DNA from: Microlunatus elymi
GTDB lineage: Bacteria > Actinomycetota > Actinomycetes > Propionibacteriales > Propionibacteriaceae
Assembly: GCF_007362775.1 (NCBI RefSeq)
Contig: NZ_CP041692.1
Coordinates: 2,232,001 to 2,296,000 of the forward strand
Length of the DNA: 64,000 bases
Direction: 5' to 3'
A program made the translations under genes and the position numbers. Shown piece by piece: positions 1 to 64,000 of the stretch. The notes under the pieces were generated by a model. That model saw nothing but the letters and a program-made list of their open reading frames with translations. It did not search any database and had not been told where the DNA came from. The number at the start of each line of letters is the position of its first letter. Position 1 is the first letter of the stretch.

Positions 1-3000
1 CGTGTTCGATGTAGAGGATCCGGTCGGCCCGGGCCGCCGTGGTCAGCCGGTGTGCGACCACGATCGTGGTCCGCTGTTCGGCCAGCCGCTCGGTCGCGTG
101 GGTCACCATCGCCTCGCTGCGCAGGTCCAGCGCCGCGGTCGCCTCGTCCAACAGCAGGATCGCCGGCTTCACCAACTCCGCCCGGGCCAGCGCGATCAAC
201 TGGCGTTGGCCCGCAGACAGGTTGCGGCCGCGTTCGGCGATCGGATGCAGATAGCCGCCCGGCAGCCGGGAGATCATCTCGTGCGCACCCACGGCCCGGG
301 CCGCCGCCTCCACCTCGGCATCGCTCGCGCTCGGTCGCCCGTACGCGACCTGGTCACGGATGTTGCCCGGGAAGAGGTAACTCTCCTGCGGCACCAACCC
401 CACGTGGCGCCGGTACGCGGGCAGATCCAGTGATCGAAGATCATGATCGTCGATCCGGATCGAGCCGTCGTTGATGTCGTAAAACCGCTCGATCAGCTTG
501 ACCACGGTGGACTTCCCGGCGCCGGTCTCACCGACCAGTGCGACCGTGTCACCGGCCGCGATCGAGACCGTCATGCCGTCCAGCGCCGGCCGGTTCGCGG
601 TCTCGTACTGGAACACGACGTCGTCGAAGTCGATCCGGCCGTCGACCCGGTCCAAGATCACCGGCCGTTCGGCCGACGGAGTCGAGGTCGGGGTACTGAG
701 CAACTCGCGGATCCGCATCAGACCGACCATCGCCTGCTGATAGCCGTCGAAGACCTGGGACAGGTTCTGAATCGGCGCGAACAGCAGATCGATGTAGAGC
801 AGGTACGCGATCAGTCCGCCCGCGGTGATCATGCTGTTGTGGAACTGGGTCGCGGCCAAGATCAACACCAGCGCCCCGGCCAACGCACTGAGGAACTGGA
901 CGAACGGGAAGTAGATCGAGATGTAGCGCTGCGCCCGGGTCCGGGTACGCCGATAGCCGTCGGACAGGTTGGCGAACCGGGCCGCGTTGTGCTCCTCGCG
1001 GCGGAAGGCCTGGGTGATCCGCAGCCCGGCCACGTTCTCCTGCAGATCGGCGTTCACAACCGACAGTTGTTCCCGGGCCTGGCGATAGGCCCGGCTGCTG
1101 ACCCGGCGGAAGACCAGCGTGGTGATCACCAGCACCGGCAACACCAGACCGACCACCAGCATCAGCCGGAGATTGAGGAAACACAGTGCGGTCAGGATGC
1201 CGAAGAACGACAGCAGGCTGACCAGTGCGGTGACCAGACCCGTCTGCATGAAGGAGGACAGCGCGTCCACGTCGGACGTCATCCGGGTCATGATCCGGCC
1301 GCCCATCTCGCGCTCGTAGTAGTCGAGCCCGAGCCGCTGCAGGTGGCTGAAGATCTTCACCCGCAGCGTGTAGAGGAAACGCTCGCCGGTCCGGCCGGTG
1401 ACCCGCATCGCGGCGATCTGCACGCCCCAGTCGATCAGTACGACGGCCAGCGCCAACGCCGATGCCACCCAGATCGCGGTCAGCAGACCCTTGTTGACGC
1501 CGTCGTCGATGCCGTCGCGGATCAACACCGGCAAAGCCAAACCACACAGGGCATCCGCGGCGACCAGCCCGAATCCGACCGCGAACGGCAGCCGGAACTT
1601 GCGCAGCAGCGAACCGAGCCGGAAGTGATCATCACTGGCCCGGGCGAACGCCGGATCGACTTCGGGCCGGCCGTCGGCCGGCGGCAACTTGTCCACCGCG
1701 TCCAGCAACTCCGGGGTCGGCGGCATCGACGCCATCCCGGAGCTCAGCCCGCGACCACCGCCACCGCCGCCGCGTCCACCGGCAGCACCCATCCGCGCCA
1801 GCCGGTCGGCGATCACCGGGTCGTCGACGCCGCCAGGCACCGCATCCGGATCCCACAGCCCGGCAGTGACCTCGCCGGTCCGCCAGCCGTCCGCGTCGTC
1901 GTCGAAGATCAAGTTCTCCGGCCCGGCCAGCAGTTCACGGAAGAGCTCGGAGCGTTGCTCCAATTCCTCGATGGTGCCGAAGTCGACGATCCGCCCATGA
2001 TCAAGTACGGCGATGCGGTCTGCCAGCTGCAGCGTCGAGCGACGATGCGCCATCACCAGCGTGGTCCGCCCGTGCAACACCCGATGCAGGTTGGCGTGGA
2101 TCTCCGCCTCGACCCGGGCGTCGATCGCCGAGGTGGCGTCGTCCAAGATCAGGATCCGCGGATCGGCCAGGATCGCGCGCGCCAGCGCCACCCGCTGCCG
2201 CTGGCCGCCGGACAGGGTGAGGCCCTGCTCGCCGACCACGGTGTCGTACCCCTTCGGCAGTTCGCTGATGAAGCCGTCGGCATGGGCAGCCTCGGCCGCG
2301 ACCTCGATCTCGGCCCGGCTCGCGTTCGGTCGTTCGTACGCGATGTTCGCCGCGATGCTCTCGCTGAAGAGGAAGCTGTCCTCGGGCGCGATCCCGATCG
2401 CTGCCCTGAGCGATTCCACCGTCAGCCCGCGTACGTCCTGGCCGTCGATCCGGACGACGCCCTGCGAACAGTCGTAGAAGCGGGGCACCAACTGCGCGAT
2501 CGTCGACTTGCCCGACCCGGACCCGCCGACGATGGCCAGCGTCTCGCCCGGCTCGACGGTCAGGTTGATGCCGTCCAGCACCGACCGGCCGGCCTCGTAG
2601 CAGAAGCTCACGTCGGTGAAGGTGAGCCGACCGGGTCCGGGCCGCAGCTGCTCGGCATCGGGAAGTTCCTTGACGGTCGGCCGGGTGTCGATGATCTCGA
2701 AGATCCGGATCACCGACGCCTTCGCCTGCTGGCCGGTGGTCAGCAGCAGGCTGAGCAGCCGGACCGGGTTGGCCATCTGGGTGACGTAGGTGGAGAAGGC
2801 GAGGAAGGTACCCAGTGTCAGCCCGCCGTGCACCGCGAGGTAGCCGCCCAGCGCCAGTACGCCGACCGTGCCCAGTTGCGGGATCGCCTGCATGGCAGGG
2901 TTGTAGATGCTGTTGAGCTTGATCGTCCGCAGCCGCGCGCCGAACAGCCGTTGGGAGACGTCGTCGACCCGGTCGAGTTCCTGCCGTTCCTGGCCGAAGC

Positions 3001-3697
3001 CCTTCACCACGCGGACTCCGGACGTCGCCGCTTCCACGGCGCCGGCCAATTCGCCGTCGGTCTGCTGGGCGAACCAACTGGACGGGAACAGCTTCGCTCG
3101 ACTGCGCAGGCCCAGGATCCACAGCGCCGGAATCGTGGCCAGCGCGATCAGCGCGAGCATCGGCGACAACGAAAACATCACCGTGATCGAGGCGACGAAC
3201 ATGACCAGGTTGCCGACCAGGTTGGGCAGCATCTGCAACAGCGCCTGGACCAGGGTGAGGTCCGAGGTCGTCCGGCCGACCACCTGGCCGGTGCTCAGCC
3301 CGTCCTGCTTGGCGCCGTCCAGCTTGGCCAGCGAGTTGAAGACGTCGGTACGCAGTGAGTGCTGGACGTCGACCGAGAGCCGGCCGCCGTTGAAGCGGCG
3401 CAGGTAGGTCAGGCCGAAGACGGCCGCGGCGACGATCACCAGCAGGGCCGCCCAGGGCAGCAGCGGCTGCACCGGCTTTAAGATCACGTGATCGATGATC
3501 TGGCGCTGGATCAGCGGCAGCGTGACGGCCAGGACCTGGCTGACCACGCCGGCCCCGAACGCGATCAGCACCCTGGGTTTGAACCGCCAGCAGTAGCCGG
3601 CGATCCGGCGGACCCAGCGGTCTTCCGGCCGGGCCGGCGCGCTGTCGGTGCTCGGTTGTTCGGTCGAGGTGCCGGAGGCGGTTGCGAGCTGGGTCAC
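1..3697 (-). CDS. Single-chain full-size ABC multidrug-type exporter (partial, runs off left edge)
   Basis: The frame stays open from a GTG at 3697 to base 1 (about 1,232 codons), so both half-transporters are one polypeptide: TMD1-NBD1-linker-TMD2-NBD2. NBD1 has Walker A GGSGSGKST (about residues 389-398), signature LSGGQRQR and Walker B ending ILILDDATSAID. NBD2 has Walker A GETGAGKST (about 1055-1064), signature LSAGQRQ and LLLDEATAALD. The NBD1 catalytic glutamate is Asp, so one ATP site is probably degenerate, as in heterodimeric exporters. A Gly/Pro-rich linker follows NBD1. The missing C-terminus should be short because the frame already includes the H-loop (VVAHRLTTAARADRILYIEH). The start overlaps the marR stop by GTGA, so the two are an operon and the MarR protein probably controls export. 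Family knowledge suggests efflux of hydrophobic compounds or lipids; the substrate is unknown. Confidence 0.93.
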   Translation of the reverse strand, partial: MTQLATASGTSTEQPSTDSAPARPEDRWVRRIAGYCWRFKPRVLIAFGAGVVSQVLAVTLPLIQRQIIDHVILKPVQPLLPWAALLVIVAAAVFGLTYLRRFNGGRLSVDVQHSLRTDVFNSLAKLDGAKQDGLSTGQVVGRTTSDLTLVQALLQMLPNLVGNLVMFVASITVMFSLSPMLALIALATIPALWILGLRSRAKLFPSSWFAQQTDGELAGAVEAATSGVRVVKGFGQERQELDRVDDVSQRLFGARLRTIKLNSIYNPAMQAIPQLGTVGVLALGGYLAVHGGLTLGTFLAFSTYVTQMANPVRLLSLLLTTGQQAKASVIRIFEIIDTRPTVKELPDAEQLRPGPGRLTFTDVSFCYEAGRSVLDGINLTVEPGETLAIVGGSGSGKSTIAQLVPRFYDCSQGVVRIDGQDVRGLTVESLRAAIGIAPEDSFLFSESIAANIAYERPNASRAEIEVAAEAAHADGFISELPKGYDTVVGEQGLTLSGGQRQRVALARAILADPRILILDDATSAIDARVEAEIHANLHRVLHGRTTLVMAHRRSTLQLADRIAVLDHGRIVDFGTIEELEQRSELFRELLAGPENLIFDDDADGWRTGEVTAGLWDPDAVPGGVDDPVIADRLARMGAAGGRGGGGGGRGLSSGMASMPPTPELLDAVDKLPPADGRPEVDPAFARASDDHFRLGSLLRKFRLPFAVGFGLVAADALCGLALPVLIRDGIDDGVNKGLLTAIWVASALALAVVLIDWGVQIAAMRVTGRTGERFLYTLRVKIFSHLQRLGLDYYEREMGGRIMTRMTSDVDALSSFMQTGLVTALVSLLSFFGILTALCFLNLRLMLVVGLVLPVLVITTLVFRRVSSRAYRQAREQLSVVNADLQENVAGLRITQAFRREEHNAARFANLSDGYRRTRTRAQRYISIYFPFVQFLSALAGALVLILAATQFHNSMITAGGLIAYLLYIDLLFAPIQNLSQVFDGYQQAMVGLMRIRELLSTPTSTPSAERPVILDRVDGRIDFDDVVFQYETANRPALDGMTVSIAAGDTVALVGETGAGKSTVVKLIERFYDINDGSIRIDDHDLRSLDLPAYRRHVGLVPQESYLFPGNIRDQVAYGRPSASDAEVEAAARAVGAHEMISRLPGGYLHPIAERGRNLSAGQRQLIALARAELVKPAILLLDEATAALDLRSEAMVTHATERLAEQRTTIVVAHRLTTAARADRILYIEH

Positions 3698-9359: not shown

Positions 9360-10211
9360 GTGATCGAACGACTCACGGCGCTGGGCTTCTCGACCCAGGA
9401 AGCGCGGGTTTATCTGGCCCTGCTGCAGCATCCGTCGGCGACCGGCTACGAAATCGCCAAGCAGGCCGGACTGCAGCGGGCGAACGTCTATCAGGTGTTG
9501 TCGGTGCTCACTGACCGGAACGTGGTCGAGCGCGCCAACGACACTGGACCGGCCCGCTACGTCGCCCATCCGCCGGCCGAGGTTCTCGGTCGGATCAAGC
9601 GCCAGACGGCCCAGCAGGCCGACGGACTGATCGCCGATCTCTCTGCCCTGACAGCGAATCAGGAGCCGACCGGCTTTTTCTCGCTGCGCGATCGCGAGGC
9701 GGTGATCGAGCGCACCGCATCCCTGGTCGCCGACGCCGAACGACGCGTCGCGGTCTGTCTGTGGGCCGATGATCTTGACTGGTTGGCCGGTCCGCTGCAG
9801 GCCGCCGCGTCCTCCGGATGCCAGGTCGTGGTGAACGTGTTCGGTGAAGCAGAGCTCGACTTCGGCGAGGTGTTCACCCACGAGGAACCATCCCGTACGG
9901 TCGGCGGCCACCTGCTGCTGGTCGCCGTTGATCAAGGTACGGCGCTGGTCGGCGCGCTGGACGAGCCGGTGGGCGCCGTGTTCACCCAACATCCTGCACT
10001 GGTAGGGATCGTGGAGAAGCTGATCCGCGACGAGACCTACCTGGCCGCCATCTATGCCCGGTTCGCCGATGATCTTGAAACCGAGTTCGGCAAGCATCTG
10101 GTCAAGCTCCGTTCCCGTTTCCTGCCCGCAGAGCAGGCCGAGCAGCTGATCTCGATCGTCGGCTTCGGTGCCGATGATCAGGTCAGCGACCTCCTCATCA
10201 ACCCCGCCTGA
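9360..10211 (+). CDS. TrmB-family transcriptional regulator
   Basis: 283 residues. The N-terminal winged helix (about 1-70) has the TrmB pattern LTALGFSTQEARVYLALLQHPSATGYEIAKQAG and ANVYQVLSVLTDRNVVE. The middle part (about 115-230) resembles the phospholipase-D-like effector-binding region of TrmB proteins (EAVIERTASLVADAERRVAVCLW). TrmB regulators usually sense sugars. The gene lies 58 bases before the PurA-like gene on the same strand, so it may control that gene or the galactoside locus downstream. Start GTG 9360 follows a TAGCTT box. Confidence 0.88.
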   Translation: MIERLTALGFSTQEARVYLALLQHPSATGYEIAKQAGLQRANVYQVLSVLTDRNVVERANDTGPARYVAHPPAEVLGRIKRQTAQQADGLIADLSALTANQEPTGFFSLRDREAVIERTASLVADAERRVAVCLWADDLDWLAGPLQAAASSGCQVVVNVFGEAELDFGEVFTHEEPSRTVGGHLLLVAVDQGTALVGALDEPVGAVFTQHPALVGIVEKLIRDETYLAAIYARFADDLETEFGKHLVKLRSRFLPAEQAEQLISIVGFGADDQVSDLLINPA

Positions 10212-10269
10212 ACCGCAGCTCGCTGCGAACGCCGTCCCTCATCTGCCTTAGCCACAAGGAGATTTCGTC

Positions 10270-11283
10270 ATGCCCGCATCCGTGATCGTGGACGCCCTCT
10301 GGGGTGATTCCGGCAAGGGAAAGGCCTGCGCCTACCTGTCCCGCAAGCACGACGCCGCGCTGGCCGTACGAGCCGGCATCGGCACCAACGCCGGCGCCAG
10401 TGTGACCCTCGAGTCCGGCGAGTTGATCAAGGCCCGGCAGCTGCCGACCGGTTGGCTCAATCCCGGCACCCGGGTCGCGGTCGGCTCCGGTGTGCTGGTC
10501 GATCCGCGGATCTTCGCCTCCGAGCTGGATCGCTTCGGCATCGCCGACCGGGCCATGGTCGACCTTCGCTGCGCGGTGATCACCGAGGACCACATCGCCG
10601 CCGAACAGGGTGATGATCATCTTCTGGAACGGGTCGGATCGACCTGTACCGGCAACGGTCACGCCCGGGCCGACTTCATCCTGCGGCGCGCCCGCCAGGC
10701 TCGTGACCTGCCCGAGCTGGAGCCCTATCTCGCCGACGTCGCGGCGGAGGCGAACCGGATCGCGGCGACCGATGATCAACTCGTGATCATCGAGAGCTCA
10801 CAGGGCACGATGCTGTCGCTGGCACTCAGCGACGACTACCCGTACACGACCTCGGGCAACTGCACCACCGCCGCCGCGCTGAACGACGTCGGCCTGAACT
10901 GGCGCCACCTGACCGACGTGATCATGGTCGTCAAGGCGATGCCGACCCGGGTCGGCCACGGCCCGCTGCCGTACGAGCTGAGCGCGGCCGAGGTCGAACG
11001 CCGCGGCATCGCCGAGTACGGCGTGAACACCGGCCGGCTGCGGCGCAAGGCTGCAGCACTTGATCATGATCTGCTCCGTTACGCCGCGATGCTGAACGGC
11101 CCGACCCAGATCGCGCTGACCTTCGGTGATCATCTCGACCCGCGGCTGCGCGGCGCCAGGACCACGGCCGCGATCGGACCCGAGGTGCGCACGGTGATCG
11201 CCGAGGTCGAGGCCAGCACCGGCGCGCCGGTGACGCTGCTGGACACCGGACCCCGGTTGGCCGACATGATCGAACTCGGCTGA
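10270..11283 (+). CDS. Adenylosuccinate synthetase-like protein with altered active site
   Basis: 337 residues, the length of the short archaeal-type PurA group, well below the roughly 430 of ordinary bacterial PurA. Family landmarks: WGDSGKGK (11-18; normally GDEGKGK), IGTNAGAS (37-44; normally NAGHS/T), SQGTMLSL, YPYTTSGN, MPTRVGHGPLP, and NTGRLRRK (normally TGRRRR). Asp13 is kept, but Glu14 is Ser, the catalytic His is Ala43, and the IMP-phosphate loop reads GSTCTGNG. A normal IMP-to-adenylosuccinate reaction is therefore doubtful. It may ligate a different purine or amino acid, or be regulatory. RBS AAGGAG precedes the ATG; trmB lies 58 bases upstream, with the galactosidase downstream. 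Confidence 0.8.
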   Translation: MPASVIVDALWGDSGKGKACAYLSRKHDAALAVRAGIGTNAGASVTLESGELIKARQLPTGWLNPGTRVAVGSGVLVDPRIFASELDRFGIADRAMVDLRCAVITEDHIAAEQGDDHLLERVGSTCTGNGHARADFILRRARQARDLPELEPYLADVAAEANRIAATDDQLVIIESSQGTMLSLALSDDYPYTTSGNCTTAAALNDVGLNWRHLTDVIMVVKAMPTRVGHGPLPYELSAAEVERRGIAEYGVNTGRLRRKAAALDHDLLRYAAMLNGPTQIALTFGDHLDPRLRGARTTAAIGPEVRTVIAEVEASTGAPVTLLDTGPRLADMIELG

Positions 11284-32174: not shown

Positions 32175-32354
32175 TTAGGTGCCTAGTCCCATCATCAGCG
32201 TGATCATCGGGGTGAGTTGGCGTAGCAGATCGGGAGCGAGGTCGCCGACGTGCTGGCGCAGGCCAGTCCGTTTGAGTGCAGTGATGTTGTCAACTTGTAG
32301 CCACCACGTTTTGTGCAGGCCATTGGCCGAGCCGAAAGTTACATGCAACTTGGA
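32175..32354 (-). pseudogene. MazF toxin remnant (C-terminal half only)
   Basis: The last 59 codons (SKLHVTFGSANGLHKTWWLQVD ... LRQLTPMITLMMGLG) align with the C-terminal part of the intact toxin at 25255. The RGDIW opening is missing, and no antitoxin is adjacent. The upstream codons in this frame show no similarity, so the gene is 5'-truncated and presumably inactive. It lies 70 bases from a tRNA gene. Confidence 0.7.
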
Positions 32355-32404
32355 AGCGGTCGGGTTGAACGCTGTCGGGATCCGGCCGAGCCCGTCGGAC
32401 CCGG

Positions 32405-32985
32405 TCACACCAGTGGATAGACGAGTTCGCCGTCCTGATCGGTGACTGGCTCGGCGCCCCAGCGGCCGAGTTCGTGCCGGCGCGGCGGATCGTCGCCGAA
32501 CAGGTGCCAGACGGTCCAACCTCGCGCTGTGAGGGTGTTGGCGATCAGCAAGCGGTGGCAGCGCCAGGGCATCGGCTCACCGCACAACAGCACGTACGGC
32601 GGTCGGTGGCGAGTTCGGTCAGCCGATCGATTCCGTTCCGATAGTCGTCGGTCAGCGTGTAGTCGGCGTAGTTCTTGAAGCTGGGCTGCTGCCATCCGGC
32701 ATTGCGTACGGGATCAACCTCCGGCTGACGCCGCCGTCGGCCGCCGAGCTCCGGCAGATGGACGTAATCGATGCCCGCGTCCGGCAGCCACCGGCGCATT
32801 TCGTCCTGGCCGAACTGCGGATTGCGCCGTGAAGCCGGATGAGCTCGTACGTCGGCGAGCAGTTCGATGTCGTGCCGACGCAAGGGCGCCAGAAACACCT
32901 CCTGGGCGCAGGTCCAGTGCCCGATCGTCCAGATCTCACCCGGCGGGACGTGCGGCGTTGATTCGGTGGATTTCGGCGCTGACAT
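32405..32985 (-). pseudogene. DUF488-family protein, frameshifted
   Basis: The N-terminal part (EIWTIGHWTCAQEVFLAPLRRHDIELLADVRAHPASRRNPQF) reads in one frame from ATG 32985. The C-terminal part with the DUF488 motif LCGEPMPWRCHRLLIA continues in another frame to the stop at 32405. The switch falls near 32597, where RLTELATDRRT should run into YVLLCGEPMPW. It is either a decayed gene or a sequencing indel. Function of DUF488 proteins is unknown. Confidence 0.8.
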
Positions 32986-33175
32986 CCGGGCCGAGCCTAC
33001 GGGCCGATCCGCCGACGTCGGTAACGATTGGGCGCTCAATCTGCGGTCGACAGGGTTCCACCCTGTCTGTGTTCGACGCTAAGGTCCCGTTCAGTGTCGT
33101 CGAAGCTGCGGCGGCACACCGAGGGGATACCGGCGGACAACTGTGCCGGGCGTCCCGCGAGAGTCGAGGTGGACG

Positions 33176-36100
33176 TTGAGCTGGAGCGTCGGGCATAGGA
33201 GAAGACATCGGCTACGCGGTGTGCTCGCGCTGGCCCTCTCCTTCTTCCTGATGGTCGGGCTGACACTCGCAGGCGGTTTCGTCCGGCCGACATCGGCCCA
33301 GGCCGCCACCAACACCACGTGCAACTTCGCCGATCCGGGCACCGGCACCTACGCCTCGACGCTGTGCTGGTTCGACCTGGGCGGTTACAACCAGGCCCAG
33401 GCCGCCAGCGGGCAGGACATGTCGGTCAGCATCCCGGGCGGCTACACGATGAACTTCAGGCTCACGTCCGTTGACGGCGGAGCAAATCTGTACGCGACCA
33501 AATTTCCAACGTATCCGGACGCATTTCTTGGCAACAACGGCTTCTACAGCGGGGTAGCGGGAAATCCCGCCCTTTACCAGCGCACGAACGGCCGCACCTC
33601 GACCATCACGCTGAACAACTTCTCGCTGACCAACTCCGCCGGCCAGCCCGTCAACGGCTACGCCCTGGTCGGCGCCGACGCCGAGTCCACCGACTCGAGC
33701 GAGTCGATCACCTGGCAGTCTTCCGATCCGATCACCTCGCTGGTCGCAAACGAGCGCGACAACGGTCTCGGCAACGCCTGCGGCGGCGGTTTCACCGGCA
33801 TTGGGTCGACCACGGTGAAATGCACCGGCAGCGGGTCGAGCCAGAAGACCGGCACTGCGATCGTGGCGTCGCAGCAGCCCACGAGGTTCTCCCAGACCAT
33901 GGTCGGCGGCGGCCTCCAGGCAGTCGCCTTCGGCGTACTCGTCTCCAGCGTCCAGCTGAACAAGAAGCTCGTAAACCGCTTCGACAACGACTCCTTCGAC
34001 ATCAGCATCACTCGTGGCGAGGAGACGATCGCCGGCGACAGCACCGGGGGCACGGGCACCACGGCCAGCACCGGTCAGCGGACCATCGTGGTCGGCGCGA
34101 ACGGCACCGACCTGACGCTGGCCGAGGCGGCGAACCCCGGAAATCTCGATCTCTACGACGTCGACTGGTCCTGCACCAGAAACGGTCAGGAGGACTCTGC
34201 CCTGCCGACCGGGGACGTGGGCACCAGTGCCGGCGTGCACCTCGATGTCGGCGACGCCGTCGACTGCACGATCACCAACACCGGTCATGCGCGAAGTATC
34301 AGCCTGCTCAAGCGGGCCGGCACTCCGGTCGACGTCAACGACAACGGCATCACGGACGCCGGCGACACCATCGACTACACATTCGTGGTCACCAACACCG
34401 GTGACACCGACATCGCAGGTGTCACCGTCGATGACAACAAGGTCGGCTCGGTCACCTGCCCGCCGGGCACCCTGCAACCCGGCGATCGGGTCACCTGCAC
34501 GCTCGACACTCCGTACACGATCACCGACGCGGACCAGGACGCCGGGCAGGTGCACAACACCGCGACCGCCACGGGCACCGTGCCGGGCACCAACACCGAC
34601 GTCACCTCCAACGACTCGGAGACGAACACCCCGGTCGTCGTTCCGGACCCGGACTTGACGCTGGTGAAGTCGTTGGATCCGGACACCGCCTTCCGGGCCG
34701 GCGAGCAGGTCACGTACACCTTCACCGCGACCAACACCGGCAACGTGCCGCTCAGCGGCGTGGACATCACCGACACCGAGTTCAGCGGCAGCGGTCAGAT
34801 GTCCGCGCTGGACTGCGGAACTGATCGTGATCTTGACCCGGGCGACCAGTTGACCTGCACGGCGACGTACGAGTTGACCCAGGACGACATCGACGCAGGC
34901 CAGGTGACCAACACCGCAGTAGCCAACGGCTCCGCTCCGGATGGTACGGAGGTGAGTGACACCGACGATGCCCGTATCCCGGTGCAGCCGGATCCGAGCC
35001 TCCTACTGCTCAAGACCGTTGATCCTCACCGGGTCGACGGGCCGGGGGCGACGGTGACCTACACCTTCCGGGTGCTGAACACCGGCAATGTCACGCTGAA
35101 CGACCCGACCATCGACGAGACGAACTTCACCGGTTCCGGCCCGGTGCCGAAGGCCGATTGTCCGACCGGTCCGTTCGCCCCCGGCAAGTTGATCACCTGC
35201 AGAGTGACCTACACCATCACCGATGCGGATGCCGATCAGCACGAGGTGGTCAACGCCGCCACCGCGACCGCCACCACGTCCGGTGGCGAGGACGTCACCT
35301 CCAACACCTCTCGGGCGATCGTGGTGATTCCTCCGCGGCCGGAGATCACGATCGACAAGACGGCCGATCCGACCACCGTCGATCAGGCCGGCGACACCGT
35401 CGAGTACAGCTTCGTGGTCACCAACACCGGCAACGTCACCCTGCACGACGTGACCGTCAACGACGTCACCTTCAGCGGCACCGGCAACCTGGGGACCATC
35501 AACTGTCCCGACGACAGCCTGGCTGCCGGCGACACGACGACCTGCACCGCGACCTATCAGGTGACCCAGGACGACATCGACGCCGGCGAGATCACCAACA
35601 GCGCCAGCGCAACCGGGACGCCGCCGGGTGAGGATGCTGAGCCGGTCACCTCGCCGCTCGACGACGCCCGGGTGACGGCGGACCGGAATCCGGCGATCGA
35701 ACTGGACAAGACGGCCTCGCCGAAAACGTACAGCCAGCCCGGCGACATGATCCGCTACACGTTCACCGTTACCAACACCGGCAACGTGTCGCTGTCCAAC
35801 GCCGAGGTCACCGAAACCCAGTTCACCGGCAGCGATGAGGGCCCGGCGGTGTCCTGCCCGGTCGGCGTGTTCGCGCCGGGGGAGTCGGTCGAATGCGTGG
35901 CCGACTACACCGTGACCCAGTCCGACATCGATCGCGGCAGCATCCACAACACCGCGACCGCGACCGCCGATCCGCCGTACGACACCGATCCGCCGACCTC
36001 CGACCCGGACTCCGCGGTCGTCACGGCCGACCGGAACCCCGCGATCACGCTGACCAAGACGGCCGACCCGACCACCGTCGACCGGGCCGGCGACCAGGTC

Positions 36101-39100: not shown

Positions 39101-39700
39101 AAGATCACCAACTCCGCGGTCGCCACCGGACTCCCACCGTCCTCGTCGCAGCGCGTCACCTCCAACGAGGACTCGGTGATGGTGACCCAGGCCGCGCAGC
39201 CGGCCGTCGCCCTGCAGAAGACGGCCGACGTGCAGACGGTCAACGACGCCGGCCAGGTGATCACGTACACCTTCACCGCGACGAACATCGGCAACACGGC
39301 GCTGCGCAACGTCGAGATCAGCGAGGGCGACTTCACCGGCCACGGTGACCTCGGGCCGATCCAGTGCCCGCCGACCGACATCCTGCCGATCGGTCAGACA
39401 CTGACCTGCACGGCGACCTACCAGGTCGATCGGGCCGATCTGACCGGCAGTCCGTTGCAGAACAGCGCCTCGGTGACCGGGACCGATCCGAACGGCAACC
39501 CGGTGTCCGCCGAGGCCTCGGCCACCGTCGGCACCGAACCGCCGGCACCGACTCCCACGCCGTCGCCGAGTCCGGCACCGCCGGCAACCGGCGGTTTGCC
39601 GAACACCGGCACGTCGTTCGGTCCCGGTGTGCTGGTCGCCGGACTGGCCGCCATCGCCGCGGGACTGACCCTGCTGATCGCTCGCCGTCGGCGCGACTGA
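33176..39700 (+). CDS. Giant LPxTG-anchored surface protein with 15 tandem DUF11/DUF7507-type repeats
   Basis: About 2,174 residues. Signal peptide ending TSAQA (cleavage about residue 43). Residues about 45-270 resemble the non-repetitive ligand domain of CshA-type adhesins (NTTCNFADPGTGTYASTLCWFDLGGYN). A small domain follows. Then come about 15 repeats of roughly 116 residues (about 370-2120), each with LxKxADP, YTFxVTNTGNVTL, two conserved Cys (xxxCP, xxCTATY) and TNTATA. The end is a Pro/Thr stalk, LPNTG, a hydrophobic segment and RRRRD: a sortase signal. Extracellular, wall-anchored; adhesion is inferred. TTG 33176 follows GAGGTG; an in-frame GTG lies at 33143. Confidence 0.88.
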   Translation: MSWSVGHRRRHRLRGVLALALSFFLMVGLTLAGGFVRPTSAQAATNTTCNFADPGTGTYASTLCWFDLGGYNQAQAASGQDMSVSIPGGYTMNFRLTSVDGGANLYATKFPTYPDAFLGNNGFYSGVAGNPALYQRTNGRTSTITLNNFSLTNSAGQPVNGYALVGADAESTDSSESITWQSSDPITSLVANERDNGLGNACGGGFTGIGSTTVKCTGSGSSQKTGTAIVASQQPTRFSQTMVGGGLQAVAFGVLVSSVQLNKKLVNRFDNDSFDISITRGEETIAGDSTGGTGTTASTGQRTIVVGANGTDLTLAEAANPGNLDLYDVDWSCTRNGQEDSALPTGDVGTSAGVHLDVGDAVDCTITNTGHARSISLLKRAGTPVDVNDNGITDAGDTIDYTFVVTNTGDTDIAGVTVDDNKVGSVTCPPGTLQPGDRVTCTLDTPYTITDADQDAGQVHNTATATGTVPGTNTDVTSNDSETNTPVVVPDPDLTLVKSLDPDTAFRAGEQVTYTFTATNTGNVPLSGVDITDTEFSGSGQMSALDCGTDRDLDPGDQLTCTATYELTQDDIDAGQVTNTAVANGSAPDGTEVSDTDDARIPVQPDPSLLLLKTVDPHRVDGPGATVTYTFRVLNTGNVTLNDPTIDETNFTGSGPVPKADCPTGPFAPGKLITCRVTYTITDADADQHEVVNAATATATTSGGEDVTSNTSRAIVVIPPRPEITIDKTADPTTVDQAGDTVEYSFVVTNTGNVTLHDVTVNDVTFSGTGNLGTINCPDDSLAAGDTTTCTATYQVTQDDIDAGEITNSASATGTPPGEDAEPVTSPLDDARVTADRNPAIELDKTASPKTYSQPGDMIRYTFTVTNTGNVSLSNAEVTETQFTGSDEGPAVSCPVGVFAPGESVECVADYTVTQSDIDRGSIHNTATATADPPYDTDPPTSDPDSAVVTADRNPAITLTKTADPTTVDRAGDQVTYSFVITNTGNVTLRNVGIEETKFSGSGSISQADCPVRTLAPDDKVTCTATYVVTQDDIDAGKITNTATADGTPAGGGDKVTSDPDSARVDVDQAPKLRLAKNADPHDQLTAGQQINYTFTVTNTGNVTMSDVNVTEDSFNGSEPMSDISCPDAASSLAPGDQVTCTATYIVTQDDVDRGTLDNTATAHGTPPGTNAPTDSNDDSVRIPQPAEPGISLTKSADVTTYQAGHQVTYSFTVTNTGNVSLRDVAVDEGDFNGSGSLSAIDCPSDQTDYLAPGEQVVCTATYTPSQADVDQGNLTNTATAHGTSPDDEQINSDPDTVRITSNRTPGLSIDKVADQTELTPGETVTYSFLVTNTGNVTLTDVNVTDDEFNGAGDLPTPSCPPEAASLAPGDQVVCSSTYPVTQDDVDRGTLDNTATAHGTDPSNDPVDSDPDSATVPAEQQPALTLAKHADPVQVAAAGDTVQYTFVVTNTGNVSLHDVDVSDDAFSGSGDLSAISCPPAAATMAPGDQITCTADYTVTQKDLDAGRITNTATAHGTPPGGGQTDSDQDFAVVDAVQDPQLRLDKSADPDDRLVAGETITYTFTVTNTGNVTMHDIKISEDEFNGSGSMSEASCPDAATTLAPGDQVDCTATYTVTQADVDHQVLHNTAHATGLPPDSDDRVSSNDDSVVVPQESEPSITLTKTNDVEGSYEVGKPITYSFVITNNGNVTLTDTGITEGDFNGTADLTDVTCPDRAQSLAPTDQVTCTATYLPTQADVDQGTLTNVATSHGTPPGTDEPISSDPASSTAKAAAKPALTVVKSADPDTVSSVGQQVDYSFVVTNTGNVTLTDVGVIDTDFSGTGSAPTVSCPDTSKGLAPGKSITCTATYSTTQDDLDAGKITNTATAHGTPPGTDQPVTSDPSNARVDVQQNPQLALDKQADPLTYNGAADKITYSFVITNVGNVTLTKITVDERDFSGTGKLSKPDCPDTELAPGASTTCTAQYEVTEDDVDAGKITNSAVATGLPPSSSQRVTSNEDSVMVTQAAQPAVALQKTADVQTVNDAGQVITYTFTATNIGNTALRNVEISEGDFTGHGDLGPIQCPPTDILPIGQTLTCTATYQVDRADLTGSPLQNSASVTGTDPNGNPVSAEASATVGTEPPAPTPTPSPSPAPPATGGLPNTGTSFGPGVLVAGLAAIAAGLTLLIARRRRD

Positions 39701-43384: not shown

Positions 43385-43954
43385 ATGCGCCTGACTCGCG
43401 AGTCCGTCCTGGATGGTGCGTTCGCCATCCTGGATCGTTACGGACTGGCGGATCTGACCATGCGCCGGCTGGCCACCGAGCTCGGCGTGCAACCCGGCGG
43501 CCTGTACTGGCACTTCGCCAACAAGCAGACCTTGTTGGCCGCCATGGCCACGGCGATCTCGGAGTCGGCTGCCGAACCCGAACCGACAACCGACACCGGC
43601 TGGCGCTTACGGTTGGAACGGATCAGCAGTCGATTTCGTACGGCGTTGCTGCAGCATCGCGACGGCGCTGAGTTGGTGGCCGCCGGGTACGCCCTGCATC
43701 CGGGGGCCGGCGAACCGCTGGAATCCATGATCAAGATCCTGCAGCGCGCGGGCCTGGATCCCGATCCCGCCTATGCCGCTGCCGGCGCGCTGACGCACTT
43801 CGTTCTCGGGCACGCGGCCGAGGTGCAGTCCCATGATCAACTTCGGCAGGCCGGCGCGTTACCCCCGGATCAGGAGCGGATCCCTGATCCGGAGGTGGCG
43901 TTCAGGACCGGACTGTCGATCTTTCTGGACGGGCTGGCTGTCCGGCTCGATTGA
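43385..43954 (+). CDS. bioQ: TetR-family regulator of biotin transport (BioQ-like)
   Basis: 189 residues. N-terminal TetR HTH: LTRESVLDGAFAILDRYGLADLTMRRLATELGVQPGGLYWHFANKQTLL. Divergent from bioY, with the palindromic operator between them, which matches the BioQ arrangement of actinobacteria. It likely represses bioY. ATG 43385 follows TAGGTT by seven bases. Its last 53 bases overlap the end of the convergent membrane-protein gene. Confidence 0.85.
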   Translation: MRLTRESVLDGAFAILDRYGLADLTMRRLATELGVQPGGLYWHFANKQTLLAAMATAISESAAEPEPTTDTGWRLRLERISSRFRTALLQHRDGAELVAAGYALHPGAGEPLESMIKILQRAGLDPDPAYAAAGALTHFVLGHAAEVQSHDQLRQAGALPPDQERIPDPEVAFRTGLSIFLDGLAVRLD

Positions 43955-44918
43955 GCAGCCGACGATACGACCAGGCCAACCCGGCGAGGAAGAGCAAGAT
44001 CAACAACGACTGCTCCACCAGTCCGGGCAGGCCTGCCTCACCCAGGGCCGACCGCATCCCGACCCAGGCATAGGTGAGGACGGCGCCGACGGCCAGCCCG
44101 AACGGGTCCGGGCGACGGCTGACCATGATCAACAGGGCCACCGCCCAGACGGCGAGCATGCCGGCAAAGCTCAACCAGGCAAGGCGATCCGGCAATCCGT
44201 TGATCAGCTGGAATGCCGTGGTGGCGAGGAATCCGAGCAGCGCGGACCAGCCGATCCTTGCCGGGGTCGCCGGCAGCGAGGCGGTGACGTCGGAGCCTCG
44301 ACCACGCAGCCGGACCGCGGCCAGCACCACCAGGAGCACCAAGACTGCGACGATGATCAACTGGGCGGGATGGGCCAGGAACGGCGGCGAGGCGAAGACC
44401 GTGCTGACGGTGAGGATCGCGGCCGCGCCGATCGCGAAGATGATCAAGCAGACGACGGTCGCCGCTCGGCCGAGCCAGGGCCGGGTGTCGGCCGTGCCGT
44501 CGGATCCGTGCCAGGCTTCGACGATCGCGATCGGGGTGCAGATGCTCCAGATCACGTGCAGGCTGATCACGAAGACGGTCCACGGCGCCCCGATGCCGAG
44601 CAAGCCGATGTGGCCCGGCGCCAGCAGGTTCAGGCCGAGATAGTGCGGGTTGAAGAGCGTCTGGGTGATCAATCCCTCTTCGAAGATGCCGTAGCCGAGT
44701 GCGAGCAGCAGCAGCCCGGCCCAACCCAGTCGCAATCGGCGCGCCAGTTCGCGGATCAGCACCGCGCCCATCCCGTACAGCGCGATGAAGCTGATCAACA
44801 TGCCGATCTGCTGCCCGGCCGGTGCCATCCCGGACAGGTACTGGTCACCGAGCAGGAACTCCGCGGTCAGCGGCGACAACACCGCGAGCATGATCATCGG
44901 ACGAAAGGAAGTTTTCAC
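43902..44918 (-). CDS. Hypothetical multi-pass membrane protein
   Basis: 338 residues, about nine to ten hydrophobic segments. The motif GYGIFEEGLITQTLFNP has a Glu-Glu pair like CPBP (CAAX protease-like) proteins, but the other CPBP histidine motifs are not obvious, so function is open. GTG 44918 is used. The 3' end overlaps bioQ by 53 bases on the opposite strand. Confidence 0.75.
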   Translation of the reverse strand: MKTSFRPMIMLAVLSPLTAEFLLGDQYLSGMAPAGQQIGMLISFIALYGMGAVLIRELARRLRLGWAGLLLLALGYGIFEEGLITQTLFNPHYLGLNLLAPGHIGLLGIGAPWTVFVISLHVIWSICTPIAIVEAWHGSDGTADTRPWLGRAATVVCLIIFAIGAAAILTVSTVFASPPFLAHPAQLIIVAVLVLLVVLAAVRLRGRGSDVTASLPATPARIGWSALLGFLATTAFQLINGLPDRLAWLSFAGMLAVWAVALLIMVSRRPDPFGLAVGAVLTYAWVGMRSALGEAGLPGLVEQSLLILLFLAGLAWSYRRLLNRAGQPARPERSTVRS

Positions 44919-45049
44919 CCGACAACTCTCACGCGAGACGGCCCGGCTTGATCATGACAACGCTCCACAACCTGGACTGACGTTCGTCATGCTGATGACG
45001 TCCGCGCGGTTGCCGCTGCCGCCGTCGGGTGCTGTAGGTCGCGTTCGGG

Positions 45050-45904
45050 CTACAGCCAGGTTTCGATGGTGGCGCCGACCGCGGAATCTGCGTTGCTGCC
45101 GATCACCTCGGCGTCGAGGTCGAGCAGGTCCGGGTGGCCATGGGCCATCACGTGCGGCATGCCGACCCAGCGCAGCATCTCCAGATCGTTCGGCATGTCC
45201 CCGAACGCGGCGACGTCCGCGGCCGGCACACCGAGTTGATCACACAGCCGCGCCAGCGTCGCCGCCTTGCTCACACCCGCCGCCGACACCTCGACCAACG
45301 GCCGGGTGGGGGACGAGTGCGTCGCGGTCAGCCGGTCGCCGAGCACCCGGGCGACCTCGGCCGTGAACCGGTCCACGTCCCCGGACTCCTGCAGTACCAG
45401 CAGCTTGACGAAGTCACCGTCGGCGACCAACTCGGGCAGTTCGCCGACGTAGCGATGCGGATCGTCGGGTGCGATGAACAGCTCCTCGCAACCGTGGAAG
45501 TCGACGTAGCGCTGCTCGTAGCCGGCCCTGGCGCCGGAGTCGACGCCGAAAGCGATGCCGTCGAGCTCGCCGCGGAGTGCGGAGAACGCCTCGGCGGCGA
45601 GCCGGTGGTCGATGGCCGTGACCGACAGCACCAGATCCCGGCCGACGTCGTACGTCATCGCGCCGTTGCTGGCGATCACGATCGCGTGCGTACGCCGCAG
45701 CCCACGGATCGGCTCCAGGAAGCGGATCGGCCGGCCGGTAGCGAAGACGACCGGGATCCCGGCGTCCTCGGCAGCTCGTACGGCGGCGACGTTGCGTTCG
45801 CTGACCGTCCCGTCCGGTGACAGGAACGTGCCGTCCAGGTCGGACACGATCAGCCGGGGCGGCTTGGTCCGGACGGGGCGGGGTGTGGTCAGTTCGGAGG
45901 TCAC
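45050..45904 (-). CDS. HAD-superfamily Cof-type sugar-phosphatase-like hydrolase
   Basis: 284 residues. Motif I IVSDLDGTFLS, motif II VVFATGRPI, C-terminal VSKAATLARLCDQLGVPAADVAAFGDMPNDLEML with the metal Asp pair: the Cof (IIB cap) subfamily. Substrate is a small phosphorylated compound, not predictable. GTG 45904 lies two bases after the stop of the proline-rich protein gene, so translation is probably coupled. A 7-base inverted repeat (GCTGTAG/CTACAGC) overlaps its stop and may aid termination. Confidence 0.88.
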   Translation of the reverse strand: MTSELTTPRPVRTKPPRLIVSDLDGTFLSPDGTVSERNVAAVRAAEDAGIPVVFATGRPIRFLEPIRGLRRTHAIVIASNGAMTYDVGRDLVLSVTAIDHRLAAEAFSALRGELDGIAFGVDSGARAGYEQRYVDFHGCEELFIAPDDPHRYVGELPELVADGDFVKLLVLQESGDVDRFTAEVARVLGDRLTATHSSPTRPLVEVSAAGVSKAATLARLCDQLGVPAADVAAFGDMPNDLEMLRWVGMPHVMAHGHPDLLDLDAEVIGSNADSAVGATIETWL

Positions 45905-48625: not shown

Positions 48626-49726
48626 GTGTCGTATCCAGCTCATCCGGACTTCCCGCCGCCGACCGGCGCACCGGCTGCGCCACCGCAGCCGGCGTTCGTC
48701 GCGCCCGATCAGGCTCCGGGCGCGGTCGGCTCGGTCGTCGGGATGCCGTCCAAGCCGACCATTCCGCTGAACAAGCTCGCCCCGGAGGCGGCGCTGCGCC
48801 GGCTCGAGCTGACCATCGTACGGAGGCTGGAGGGCTTCCTGCAGGGCGATCATCTCGGACTGCTGCCCGGCCCCGGCACCGACGCCCACGACGCCCGGAT
48901 CTACCAGCCCGGCGAGGACGACGTCCGCAAGATCGACTGGAACGTCACCGCCCGGACCACCGTTCCGCACGTCCGCGACACCATCGCCGACCGCGAATTG
49001 GAAGTGTGGGCGCTGCTGGACGTCACCCCGTCGATGAACTGGGGCACCGAGGGCGTCACCAAACGCGATCTCGGCATCGCCGCGATCGCCACCATCGGCT
49101 TCCTCAGCCAGAAGCAGGGCGACCGGTTCGGCGGCTACATCATGCGGCCGGACAGCATGCGTCGGCTGCCGGCCCTGTCCGGCCGGTCCGCACTGTACGG
49201 CCTGCTGCGCAAGATGTTGACAGAACCGTTCGTGCCCGATCACGCCCGTGGCTCGTTCAGCCTGGCGCGGGGGATCGAGCAGTTGGCGCGCACCCAGCGC
49301 CGCCGCGGTCTGCGGGTGGTCGTCTCCGACTTCCTCACCCCCGGTGATCATGAGCTGGATCCCAACGTCGAACCCGAGTGGGAACGGTCGATGCGCCGGC
49401 TCGCCGTACGCAATCAGGTGCTGGCGATCGAGGTGGTGGACAAGCGGGAGATCGAGTTCCCCGATGTCGGCGAGATGCTGATCCGGGACCCCGAGACCGA
49501 CTTCGAGCGTTATGTGAACACCGGTGACGATGCTGCCCGAGCCCGGATGGACGCGGCCAGCGCGGCACAACGGGAACGGATCCGGATCTCCTTGCGGCGG
49601 GCCGGCGTCGGGCACATCCAACTGCGCACCGACCGGGACTGGGTGCAGGACATCGCCCGTTTCGTGCTGGCCTATCGCCGCGTCGCCAGCATGTTGCACG
49701 CACCGCCTCAGGGAGTCGCCAAATGA
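48626..49726 (+). CDS. DUF58 domain protein (module 1)
   Basis: 366 residues. The DUF58 core motif is DDVRKIDWNVTARTTVPHVRD, followed by a vWA-like strand VWALLDVTPSMNWG. Soluble; no membrane segment. In MoxR modules the DUF58 protein is thought to be a partner or substrate of the ATPase. GTG 48626 after GGAGACC; the stop overlaps the next start (ATGA). Confidence 0.9.
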   Translation: MSYPAHPDFPPPTGAPAAPPQPAFVAPDQAPGAVGSVVGMPSKPTIPLNKLAPEAALRRLELTIVRRLEGFLQGDHLGLLPGPGTDAHDARIYQPGEDDVRKIDWNVTARTTVPHVRDTIADRELEVWALLDVTPSMNWGTEGVTKRDLGIAAIATIGFLSQKQGDRFGGYIMRPDSMRRLPALSGRSALYGLLRKMLTEPFVPDHARGSFSLARGIEQLARTQRRRGLRVVVSDFLTPGDHELDPNVEPEWERSMRRLAVRNQVLAIEVVDKREIEFPDVGEMLIRDPETDFERYVNTGDDAARARMDAASAAQRERIRISLRRAGVGHIQLRTDRDWVQDIARFVLAYRRVASMLHAPPQGVAK

Positions 49727-50763
49727 TCATCGCAGCGCAGCTGAGCTCGCTGCCGCAATTGATCATGAGCCCGTTGACGACCGGCGGCTCGCTGATCATG
49801 GCGCCGATGTTCTCCTTCGAGAACCCCAACCGATTGCTGCTGTGGTTGGTGATTCCGCTGCTGGTGGTCGGCTACATCCTGGCCATGCGGTTCCGCAACC
49901 GGCGCGGCATGCGCTTCACCAACACCTCGATGTTGGACGTGGTGATGCCGAAGCAGTCGCAGTGGCGCCGGCATCTTGCGGTGGCGTTGTCGATCTTGAG
50001 TCTGATCACCCTGACGGCGGCCTTCGCCAAGCCGCAGGCCGAGGTGATGGTGCCGCGGGAGCGGGCCACCGTCGTCCTGGTGATCGACTCGTCCCGGTCG
50101 ATGACCGCCACCGACGTGAAGCCGAATCGGCTGGACGCGGCGAAGACCGCGGCCAAGGAGTTCGTCGACAAGCTGCCGGCCAAGTACAACGTGTCGGTGG
50201 TGTCGATGGCCGGTGCGGTGTCGATCCTGGTGCCGCCGACTCTTGATCATCAGAACGTCAATCGGGCGATCGACACGATTCAGCCGCAGGACTCGACAGC
50301 GATCGGCGAGGGCATCGACACCGCGTTGCGGGCGATCGACCAGGCACCGAAGGATCCGAAGAATCCCAAGCAGACCGCGCCCGGAGCGATCGTGATGCTC
50401 AGTGACGGCGAGAACACCGCGGGTCGGGCGCCGTTGCAGGCCGCGGCCGAGGCCAAGCAGCGCAAGGTGCCGATCTACACCATCGCGTACGGCACCGAGA
50501 ACGGCTACGTCGATCTGGACGGCAAGCGCTACACGGTCCCACCGGACACCGAACTGATGAAGCAGATCGCCGAGACCACCGGCGGCCGGACCTTCTCCGC
50601 CGACAGTCTGGGCGAGCTGAAGAAGGTGTACGAGAACATCGGCTCGGCGGTCGGCTATGTCAAGGCGAATCGGGAGATCACCTCCCGGTTCGCGGGTTAC
50701 GGACTGGCTCTGGCCGTGCTGGCAGCACTCGGGGCGATTTCCCTCGGAGCGAGGTGGCCGTGA
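49723..50763 (+). CDS. vWA-domain membrane protein, BatA-like (module 1)
   Basis: 346 residues. Two membrane segments (about 39-55 and 86-102), a vWA domain with MIDAS VIDSSRSMTATD (Asp122, Ser124, Ser126), and a C-terminal segment before GARWP. The vWA domain faces outside by prediction. It is a close paralogue of the next gene. The start overlaps the DUF58 stop. Confidence 0.9.
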   Translation: MIIAAQLSSLPQLIMSPLTTGGSLIMAPMFSFENPNRLLLWLVIPLLVVGYILAMRFRNRRGMRFTNTSMLDVVMPKQSQWRRHLAVALSILSLITLTAAFAKPQAEVMVPRERATVVLVIDSSRSMTATDVKPNRLDAAKTAAKEFVDKLPAKYNVSVVSMAGAVSILVPPTLDHQNVNRAIDTIQPQDSTAIGEGIDTALRAIDQAPKDPKNPKQTAPGAIVMLSDGENTAGRAPLQAAAEAKQRKVPIYTIAYGTENGYVDLDGKRYTVPPDTELMKQIAETTGGRTFSADSLGELKKVYENIGSAVGYVKANREITSRFAGYGLALAVLAALGAISLGARWP

Positions 50764-51755
50764 TGTTGATCATGAATCCGCAGTTGATCATGACGCCGAT
50801 GCTGTCGTTCCTGGCGCCGAGCAGGTTGTGGCTGTTGCTGCTGATCCCGGCGCTGGTGGTGCTCTACCTGGCGATCTACCGGCGCAAGGCGCAGAAGAAG
50901 AAGCGTCAGGTCGGGCAGACCATGCTGGACTTCGTCATCCCGAAGGAGCTGCCGTGGAAGCGGCACGTCGCCGTCGGGTTGTCGATCTTGAGCCTGCTCA
51001 CCCTGACCGTCGCCTTCGCCAAGCCGAAGGACACCGTCGAGGTGCCGCGAGAGCGGGCGACGGTGGTGGTCACCATCGACGTGTCGAATTCGATGATGGC
51101 CCAGGACGTGAAGCCGGACCGGCTGACCGCCGCCAAGCGGGGCGCGATTCAGTTCGTGGAGAATCTGCCGGACAAGTTCAACGTCGCGGTGGTCGAGTTC
51201 GCCGGGACCGCGACCACCCTGGTGACGCCGACCACCGATCACGGTGCGGCGATCGCGGCCATCAACAGCATGCAACTGCAGCCGTCGACGGCGATCGGTG
51301 AGGGCATCTACACCTCGCTGGCCGCGCTGGCGCAGGCGCCGCCCGATCCGGACAACCCGAAGAGCAAGCCGCCGGCCCGGATCGTGCTGCTGTCCGACGG
51401 CAAAACCCAGGTCGGCCGGCCCGCCTCACAGGCAGCCAAGGCGGCTCGTGATCAGAACGTGCCGATCTACACCATCGCGTACGGGACCCCGGACGGCTAC
51501 ATCGACGTCAACGGCACCCGGCAGCCGGTCCCGGTGGACCGTGCCGAGCTGGCTCAGGTGGCCCGGATCTCCGGTGGCGAGGCGTATCGGGCCGAGTCGG
51601 CCGGTGAGCTGCGGCAGGTCTACAAGGACATCGGATCCTCGGTCGGCAAGGTGAAGGTGGACAAGGAGGTCACCGCCCGCTGGGCCGGCTTCGGTCTCGC
51701 CTTCGCCATCCTCGCCGCCGTCGGCATGATCTCCCTCGGCGCCCGCTGGCCCTGA
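50763..51755 (+). CDS. vWA-domain membrane protein, BatB-like (module 1)
   Basis: 330 residues. Same layout as its upstream paralogue: two N-terminal membrane segments, MIDAS TIDVSNSMMAQD (Asp106, Ser108, Ser110), C-terminal segment ending SLGARWP. It arose by tandem duplication. ATG 50763 overlaps the previous stop (TGATG); in-frame GTGs lie at 50754 and 50760. No TPR protein (BatC/D) follows. Confidence 0.9.
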   Translation: MLIMNPQLIMTPMLSFLAPSRLWLLLLIPALVVLYLAIYRRKAQKKKRQVGQTMLDFVIPKELPWKRHVAVGLSILSLLTLTVAFAKPKDTVEVPRERATVVVTIDVSNSMMAQDVKPDRLTAAKRGAIQFVENLPDKFNVAVVEFAGTATTLVTPTTDHGAAIAAINSMQLQPSTAIGEGIYTSLAALAQAPPDPDNPKSKPPARIVLLSDGKTQVGRPASQAAKAARDQNVPIYTIAYGTPDGYIDVNGTRQPVPVDRAELAQVARISGGEAYRAESAGELRQVYKDIGSSVGKVKVDKEVTARWAGFGLAFAILAAVGMISLGARWP

Positions 51756-61961: not shown

Positions 61962-61967
61962 TAGGCT
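61962..61967 (+). promoter_or_regulatory. -10 box of a leaderless promoter
   Basis: TAGGCT, six bases before GTG 61974. Confidence 0.5.
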
Positions 61968-61973
61968 GCCGGC

Positions 61974-62681: not shown

Positions 62682-62728
62682 CCCCTTTTCTGCAAGGGAT
62701 TACCGGCGGGTCCGAATGACTCCGGCGG

Positions 62729-63493: not shown

Positions 63494-64000
63494 CAGGACT
63501 CCTTTCCGGTGGTCGCGACCTCTGAGGCGTTTTCGGCGGACGGTGTCGAGTCGCCGTCCGTGTCGGATCGGTCACCGATCAGGGCCAGGAAGACTTCCTC
63601 CAACGTCGGCTGCTTCTCCACGTATTCGATCTTGGTCGGCGGCAGCAGTTGCTTGAGCTCGGCCAGAGTGCCGTTCTGGATGATCGTGCCCTGGTGCAGG
63701 ATCGCGATCCGGTCGGCGAGTTGTTCGGCCTCGTCCAGATACTGCGTGGTCAGCAGCACGGTGGTGCCACCGTCGGCGAGCTGGCGAATCGTCTGCCAGA
63801 CTTCCTTGCGGGCTTGGGGATCCAGCCCGGTGGTCGGTTCGTCGAGGAAGATCACCGGCGGATTTCCGATCAGGCTCATCGCGATGTCGAGCCGACGCCG
63901 CATGCCGCCGGAGTAGGTCGACGCCTTCCGGTTGGCCGCGTCGGTGAGCGAGAAGCGGGTGAGCAGGTCGTCGGCGATCGCGTCGGGCTGCTTGAGGTGC
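63493..64000 (-). CDS. ABC transporter ATP-binding protein (DrrA-like), partial at right edge
   Basis: 169 codons visible, C-terminal half. Signature [17 protein letters not shown], Walker [22 protein letters not shown]-loop [16 protein letters not shown], and a DrrA-type C-terminal tail ([17 protein letters not shown]). Walker A lies outside the window. It powers the permease encoded next. Confidence 0.93.

Follow-up and report, generated by a model that had tools for sequence, protein, structure and literature searches.

A 64,000-base stretch of the Microlunatus elymi chromosome is densely populated by the palindrome TGATCA. The stretch (hereafter the window) covers C1:2232001-2296000 of the complete 5,121,194-base genome, labeled G000; other labels of the form G0xx denote compared genomes, and 20 genomes including G000 belong to the same genus. 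The window holds 152 copies against 4.94 expected from base composition, and TGATCA is its top over-represented hexamer among those with at least 10 copies, confirming the massive over-representation that an earlier note had reported by eye. The count of about 18 sites given there for the first 10 kb proved exact and its listed positions were correct within 2 bases (826, 1123, 1626, 5057, 5684, 6638 and 7669). The density said to continue to 64 kb extends genome-wide, with 8,681 sites in G000 or 1.70 per kb (1,695 per Mb), about one per 600 bases. Across 20 G000 samples of 20 kb the density ranges from 1.05 to 2.75 per kb with no origin-to-terminus trend by eye. The extended forms picked out in the note are present in the window as well, TTGATCAA 14 times, ATGATCAT 10 times and TGATCTTGA 9 times plus 7 times as its reverse complement. 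The DnaG protein of G000 finds its best matches in Propionibacteriales, a metagenome-assembled genome named Microlunatus matching at 61%. The sites and their local arrangement in the window are as follows.

1..64000, no strand: dispersed TGATCA sites, 152 (2.38 per kb), 133 within called genes and 19 outside
10175..11132, no strand: dense cluster of 9 sites, at 10175, 10424, 10577, 10614, 10773, 10784, 10919, 11061 and 11127
32201..35195, no strand: longest site-free interval, 2,989 bases between site starts, taking in the start of a repeat-protein gene
43728..45242, no strand: densest stretch, 12 sites, with 9 inside the 1 kb starting at 44001
49723..51755, + strand: two adjacent genes with repeated Leu-Ile-Met at the protein starts, LIM being TGATCATG in frame xTG ATC ATG

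Eight of the nine clustered sites lie inside an adenylosuccinate-synthetase-like gene (Pfam). This gene (10270-11283, +) is short, with 337 amino acids against a 416-position profile and a partial match, and is possibly a paralogue. The gene at 33221-39700 (+) encodes a surface protein of 2,159 residues that contains numerous DUF7507/DUF11 repeats and has an LPXTG anchor. Regular spacing of the sites was rejected because the variance/mean ratio is not below a shuffled null, lying at or above it in G000 and G006 and near it in G011. No clearly preferred GATC-GATC distance was found apart from the reading frame.

Much of the apparent 30-fold excess is codon usage and protein content. The base-composition null is misleading in this respect, and the earlier expectation of fewer than one site per 10 kb rested on it: synonymous shuffling with proteins and per-gene codon counts fixed (392 called genes from 464 kb of G000) predicts about one site per kb of coding sequence (380 in 392 kb). 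Against these 380 stand 753 observed sites, an observed/expected ratio (O/E) of 1.98. The earlier note had named a codon-aware O/E near 1 as grounds for abandoning its claim; the value obtained is not near 1 and is far below 30. Frame xTG ATC A contributes 523 sites against 352 expected and frame xxT GAT CAx 230 against 28, and the genes of the window alone hold 133 against 60.5, the highest of 200 shuffles being 71. When codon-junction trinucleotides are also fixed (338 genes), TGATCA stands at 687 against 447 (1.54x) and GATC itself at 1.01x, while longer words remain raised (ATGATCAA 149 against 33, TTGATCAA 64 against 12, GTTGATCA 246 against 80). The GATC core alone is thus accounted for by junction preferences, which are maybe motif-shaped themselves, and the longer palindrome is not. 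Maximal-order Markov models, which predict 103 sites in the window, were set aside, since the sub-words of TGATCA are built into them. Equal enrichment of all W-rich hexamers, the other outcome named as contrary to the claim, is not observed: among the 24 palindromes made up of four A/T and two G/C, TGATCA reaches 21.7x base composition and the runner-up TCATGA 4.2x. The reversed word ACTAGT (25 copies genome-wide in G000) is a poor control because it contains CTAG, and other control words were used.

The codons said to be forced by the palindrome (GAT CAA, GAT CAT, TTG ATC) behave as proposed in G000. The share of GAT among Asp codons is 55% before C, 17-18% before G or T and 2% before A. Of the Leu codons that precede ATC, 39% are TTG, compared with 15% overall; after GAT, CAT supplies 62% of His codons (30% overall) and CAA 45% of Gln codons (15.5% overall). 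The 2% of GAT before a codon starting with A represents a strong avoidance of GATA across codon junctions. Also in the sampled G000 genes (464 kb), CGTACG stands at 2.2x the junction model, its density being similar in G019, and GGTACC and CCGGTACC at 0.29 and 0.22; the GGTACC pattern looks like site avoidance. Genes of the G000 stretch lacking an orthologue in the sampled G006 and G011 stretches show only a slightly lower TGATCA excess than those with one (O/E 1.84 against 2.24), so no sharp core-accessory divide is apparent.

A DNA-level signal is demonstrated by the contrast between lineages, the excess between genes, the encoded tripeptides and preferential conservation at three silent positions. 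TGATCA density spans 0.19-1.88 per kb across the 20 same-genus genomes, with G004 and G008 exceeding G000, and differs between G000 (1.70 per kb) and G019 (0.55 per kb) at equal G+C (0.665). The G+C-normalized ratio is 13.9-30.3 in nine genomes (G000, G002, G004, G006, G008, G011, G012, G021 and G023; hereafter high genomes) and 3.6-9.3 in the remaining 19 of 28. G001 and G015 are intermediate, being low by this ratio with a raised codon-aware O/E (2.16 and 2.40). G000 ranks highest of 296 phylum genomes, a sample without other family members, in which the runner-up has about 0.58 sites per kb (from rounded sizes). In a DnaG tree, several deep nodes of which are supported at 0.64-0.85, the high genomes are spread over four or more positions (G000/G006/G011/G012, to which G002 is sister; G004/G008; G021; and G023), which would make the trait either old and eroded, often in higher-G+C genomes, or repeatedly gained.

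The excess is present outside genes and in protein sequence. Five high genomes were sampled at 297 short gaps separating called genes, each 40-350 bases long (38.7 kb in total). TGATCA occurs there 58 times against 3.8 by base composition (15x); other palindromes of the same composition number 21 (TCATGA), 6 (ACTAGT), 5 (AGATCT) and 3 (TGTACA). Gene calls were home-made, so some gaps may be coding. The gaps of low genomes hold 2 sites in 4.6 kb (G019, 0.5 expected) and 3 in 2.2 kb (G009, 0.2 expected), the G009 count being too small to weigh, yet not low. At the protein level, [LVM]I[TNKIM], encoded in frame xTG ATC A, was compared with within-protein permutation. O/E is 2.14 in G000, 2.69 in G004, 2.64 in G008, 2.37 in G012, 2.19 in G011, 1.91 in G006 and 2.07 in G002, against 0.98 in G019, 0.74 in G009 and 1.35 in G010. 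Other gene sets gave 2.24 (G000), 3.03 (G004), 1.75 (G006) and 1.56 (G023), and a wider third set (TNKSRIM) 1.58-2.22 in six high genomes, where the control peptides [LVM]V, [LVM]L and I[LVM] lie at 0.57-1.25. The LIM tripeptide is at 2.96x its permutation expectation in G000.

Between species, TGATCA is preserved better than the overlapping residues, as if it were read as DNA. Orthologues were paired between G000 and G011 (42), G000 and G006 (83) and G006 and G011 (40), with median identities of 78-80%. For G000-G011, 49 of 94 sites are DNA-identical and 43 residue-identical, placing TGATCA first of 388 hexamer classes; for G000-G006 the counts are 76 and 71 of 172 (first of 742 classes), or 76 and 65 of 129 from the G006 side (first of 758), and for G006-G011 38 and 33 of 65 (first of 352). 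Hexamer-class medians are 0.50-0.54 in these pairs. Hexamer identity can exceed residue identity because TGATCA covers only parts of the outer codons, and the ranking compares like with like. G004-G008, a pair independent of the window's clade (13 orthologues, directions pooled), gives 44 against 34 of 65 and again first rank (288 classes, median 0.62), whereas four low-genome pairs hold 1-7 sites each, too few for this test. Where residues are identical in the rare frame xxT GAT CAx, 19 of 28 sites are kept against 3.4 expected (G000-G006).

Silent losses of the palindrome are strongly reduced. We counted third-position changes with the other five bases and the residue kept, against a control matched for codon and next base, and found 16 against 67.0 expected (three pairs, each once). 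This is the lowest z among 1,015 classes, while by ratio (0.24) TGATCA stands fourth. With both directions included, the losses are 27 against 129.0, first of 1,171 classes by z and ratio. By position, there are 12 in 46 against 32.3, 2 in 106 against 15.2 and 2 in 43 against 18.5, while a fourth silent position (0 in 122 against 1.1) is without power. The transition T>C at position 4 (2 against 21.6) and the transversion G>C at position 2 (3 against 23.1) are both suppressed.

The preferred context of TGATCA is S-W-TGATCA-W-S. The most over-represented 8-mer of the window (at least 6 copies) is ATGATCAA, with 26 copies and 19 of its reverse complement, and the top 8-mers by z include ATGATCAA, GTTGATCA, CAAGATCA and TTGATCAA. 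When six high genomes are pooled and compared with G019, the half-sites with the greatest rise are GATC followed by AAC, ATT, ATG, AAG or ATC. W bases pair across the core beyond independence (TTGATCAT 190 against 68.8, its reverse complement ATGATCAA 177 against 70.5) and C before the T of TGATCA is disfavored, GCTGATCA occurring 63 times against 118 in the junction model. The T preceding TTGATCA is kept: TTG is unchanged in 45 of 90 cases before ATCA, in 25 of 99 where ATC is followed by a base other than A, and in 199 of 1,078 elsewhere.

The role of HIP1, the best-matching comparison among highly iterated palindromes (HIPs), is still debated. TGATCA resembles a HIP in its large excess over composition, its presence in coding and non-coding DNA (by the home-made gene calls) and its conservation beyond coding needs. 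In the parts of Elhai's 2015 account (PMC4390886) used here, HIPs are described in 97 cyanobacteria, HIP1 (GCGATCGC) numbers 300-2700 copies per Mb in the majority of HIP1 genomes and the model for it depends on mismatch repair together with a partner methylase. TGATCA shares with HIP1 as so described a GATC-centered palindrome, lineage specificity, a comparable copy number and resistance of some positions to deviation. It differs in having a TGATCA core with A/T flanks in a 67% G+C actinobacterium, and GCGATCGC is not the dominant 8-mer (111 copies against 191 of ATGATCAA/TTGATCAT in 464 kb of G000). It also differs in lacking the partners: G000 has no match at E <= 0.001 to PF02086, PF01555 or PF00145 (Dam/D12, N6_N4 and C5 methylases), the families searched for an orphan GATC or CGATCG methyltransferase, and MutS_I is found in none of the 20 genus genomes against 11 of 14 control genomes. 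A MutS-based, methyl-directed mismatch-repair ratchet was accordingly rejected. According to the same portions of PMC4390886, TGATCA is the top hexamer in many genomes of cyanobacterial group C1 (marine Synechococcus, high-G+C Prochlorococcus), without bias against deviation from the center. The present system is like group C1 in its TGATCA excess and unlike it in that TGATCA ranks first in conservation relative to residues. A gyrase site was also considered. The symmetric cleavage preference in the excerpts drawn on (PMC12324340; see also PMC6379681), which has G at +1 together with C at +4, is compatible with T|GATC|A. Around TGATCA, however, the reported G at -4 shows no enrichment (0.18), A and T are about equally frequent at -2 (0.31 against 0.30) and TGGCCA is not raised in G000 over G019, leaving this candidate unsupported.

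Taken together, the palindrome, the silent-site conservation, the lack of regular spacing and the absence of a partner methylase or MutS are best fitted by a recognition site for a dimeric protein. We tentatively propose, at a little under an even chance, that TGATCA is a weakly selected recognition site of a putative abundant homodimeric nucleoid-organizing protein. TGATCA, at its best as S-W-TGATCA-W-S, would then be a DNA-level element held at thousands of chromosomal places, probably by weak selection rather than by biased repair, and its reader may be an abundant dimeric DNA-binding protein with a symmetric site, acting in several lineages of the Propionibacteriaceae group. The nucleoid or segregation protein suggested earlier as a putative reader is compatible with this. 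With more reserve, we regard it as possible that TGATCA forms a methylase- and MutS-independent HIP in which a putative abundant dimeric protein would use a site about every 600 bases as a chromosome-wide anchoring code, under a pressure sufficient to shift both codon choice and, locally, the amino-acid sequence. The earlier interpretation as a whole is partly supported. The excess between genes, the difference between lineages, the effect on protein sequence and the conservation among orthologues support a HIP1-like DNA-level palindrome with another core, and a methylation mark set by a solitary Dam-like enzyme is unsupported given the unmatched families in G000.

Several observations weigh against a selected recognition site. 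No candidate for the reader protein has been found, and the DnaG tree does not unite the high lineages in a single clade. Residue-changing losses have uneven ratios (0, 0, 0.35, 0.39, 0.53, 0.79, 0.94 and 1.79, with few losses each) and Val-to-Ile gain at TG.GTC.A is not raised (0.08 against 0.09, by an analysis whose flow-table control is unequally conditioned). GCCGAC, CAGCCG and similar unrelated words also fall below their expected silent losses (0.55-0.59), so context-dependent mutation or codon-pair effects exist and part of the effect may be general context. G+C-rich halves likewise pair beyond independence (CAGATCCT 50 against 18.0, CCGATCCG 220 against 145.9), which makes part of the flank effect local composition. 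Among 327 W-rich words tested under the junction model, TGATCA comes 11th when ranked by ratio and third when ranked by z, and sites in G000 are clumped at 5 kb (1.96 against 1.35+-0.16 for the shuffled null). Small samples of low genomes also show raised tripeptide counts (G003 20 against 10.4, G016 14 against 7.1, G017 8 against 4.1, G020 4 against 1.8, and G018 near 2), so the high/low tripeptide contrast rests on the larger samples. In the other frame, Asp-His/Gln (1.38-1.87) is not clearly above Glu-His/Gln (1.29-1.64).

The main rival, possible although we consider it unlikely, is that motif-directed modification or lesion repair biases mutation or gene conversion towards TGATCA, a HIP-like ratchet without benefit to the cell. 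Such a bias fits sites that are dispersed and irregularly spaced, a trait that is lineage-specific and patchy in the tree, and a GATC core common with HIP1. The missing methylase families of G000 and the genus-wide absence of MutS_I speak against it, as does the protection of three silent positions, which includes both a transition and a transversion, so that one mutation class would be insufficient.

That TGATCA is a by-product of codon usage, of codon-pair context and of A/T-ending codons clustering locally is improbable, even though synonymous shuffling reduces the 30-fold excess to two-fold and junction trinucleotides reduce it further, to 1.54 for TGATCA and 1.01 for GATC. A/T-ending codons do cluster weakly with GATC masked (lag-1 0.032), and the T-before-C preference is also seen in His, Asn and Tyr codons. 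The junction null, however, itself contains the motif, and codon choice cannot produce the tripeptide excess; the excess of TGATCA in short intergenic gaps, the first rank in conservation and the sister genome G019, without the excess at equal G+C, likewise disagree with this explanation.

A methyltransferase outside four searched families could instead mark TGATCA or GATC, with the mark being selected, a proposal to which we give little credence. Type I methylases recognize bipartite targets. G000 encodes three proteins of the fourth family, PF02384 (type I HsdM-like; C1:500940, 1025632 and 4198547), of which the one examined, at C1:500940, carries HsdM_N and is of the type I kind, with a neighboring open reading frame (ORF) that is specificity-subunit-like by eye. 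Nothing in G004 corresponds to the PF02384 proteins of G000, and the matches in other high genomes are all weaker, among them those of G006 and G008 and a comparatively strong one in G012 (1.4e-18). High genomes other than G000 do carry PF00145 (G006, G011, G008 and weakly G004), PF01555 (G012) or PF02086 (G008), but none of the four Pfam families is common to the high genomes, and such families also occur in low ones (PF00145 in G005, G014, G017 and G019; PF01555 in G003, G018 and G019). Weak PF01555/PF02384 matches common to G011 and G012 proved to be UPF0020-type on examination and this lead was dropped. A D12-class adenine methylase, as expected for a Dam-type mark, occurs in 1 of 20 genus genomes (G008) and not in G000. 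The G008 gene (C1:248503-249213) lies beside an ORF that is ParB-like by eye, and G008 is a high-TGATCA genome. In favor of a methyltransferase, a GATC methylase gene is present in almost all cyanobacteria outside group C1, according to the sections of PMC4390886 consulted.

A DNA-uptake recognition sequence, as in Neisseria and Pasteurellaceae, would share the genome-wide over-representation of a short word, the high copy number and the lineage specificity, but known uptake sequences are longer than six bases and non-palindromic, unlike TGATCA, and this role is highly improbable.

HIPs and the TGATCA excess of cyanobacterial group C1 were known before; what appears to be new is a HIP-like TGATCA in actinobacteria, an excess for which, Microlunatus included, we found no report among the titles and abstract openings covered, mostly outside subscription journals. 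A palindrome comparable to HIP1 exists in an unrelated phylum, in a genome without the partners of the HIP1 model. Since high and low genomes occur within one genus, the cause is testable by comparison and pull-down. Because the DNA word is better preserved than its encoded protein, care is needed in interpreting codon usage, and certain tripeptide counts, in these genomes.

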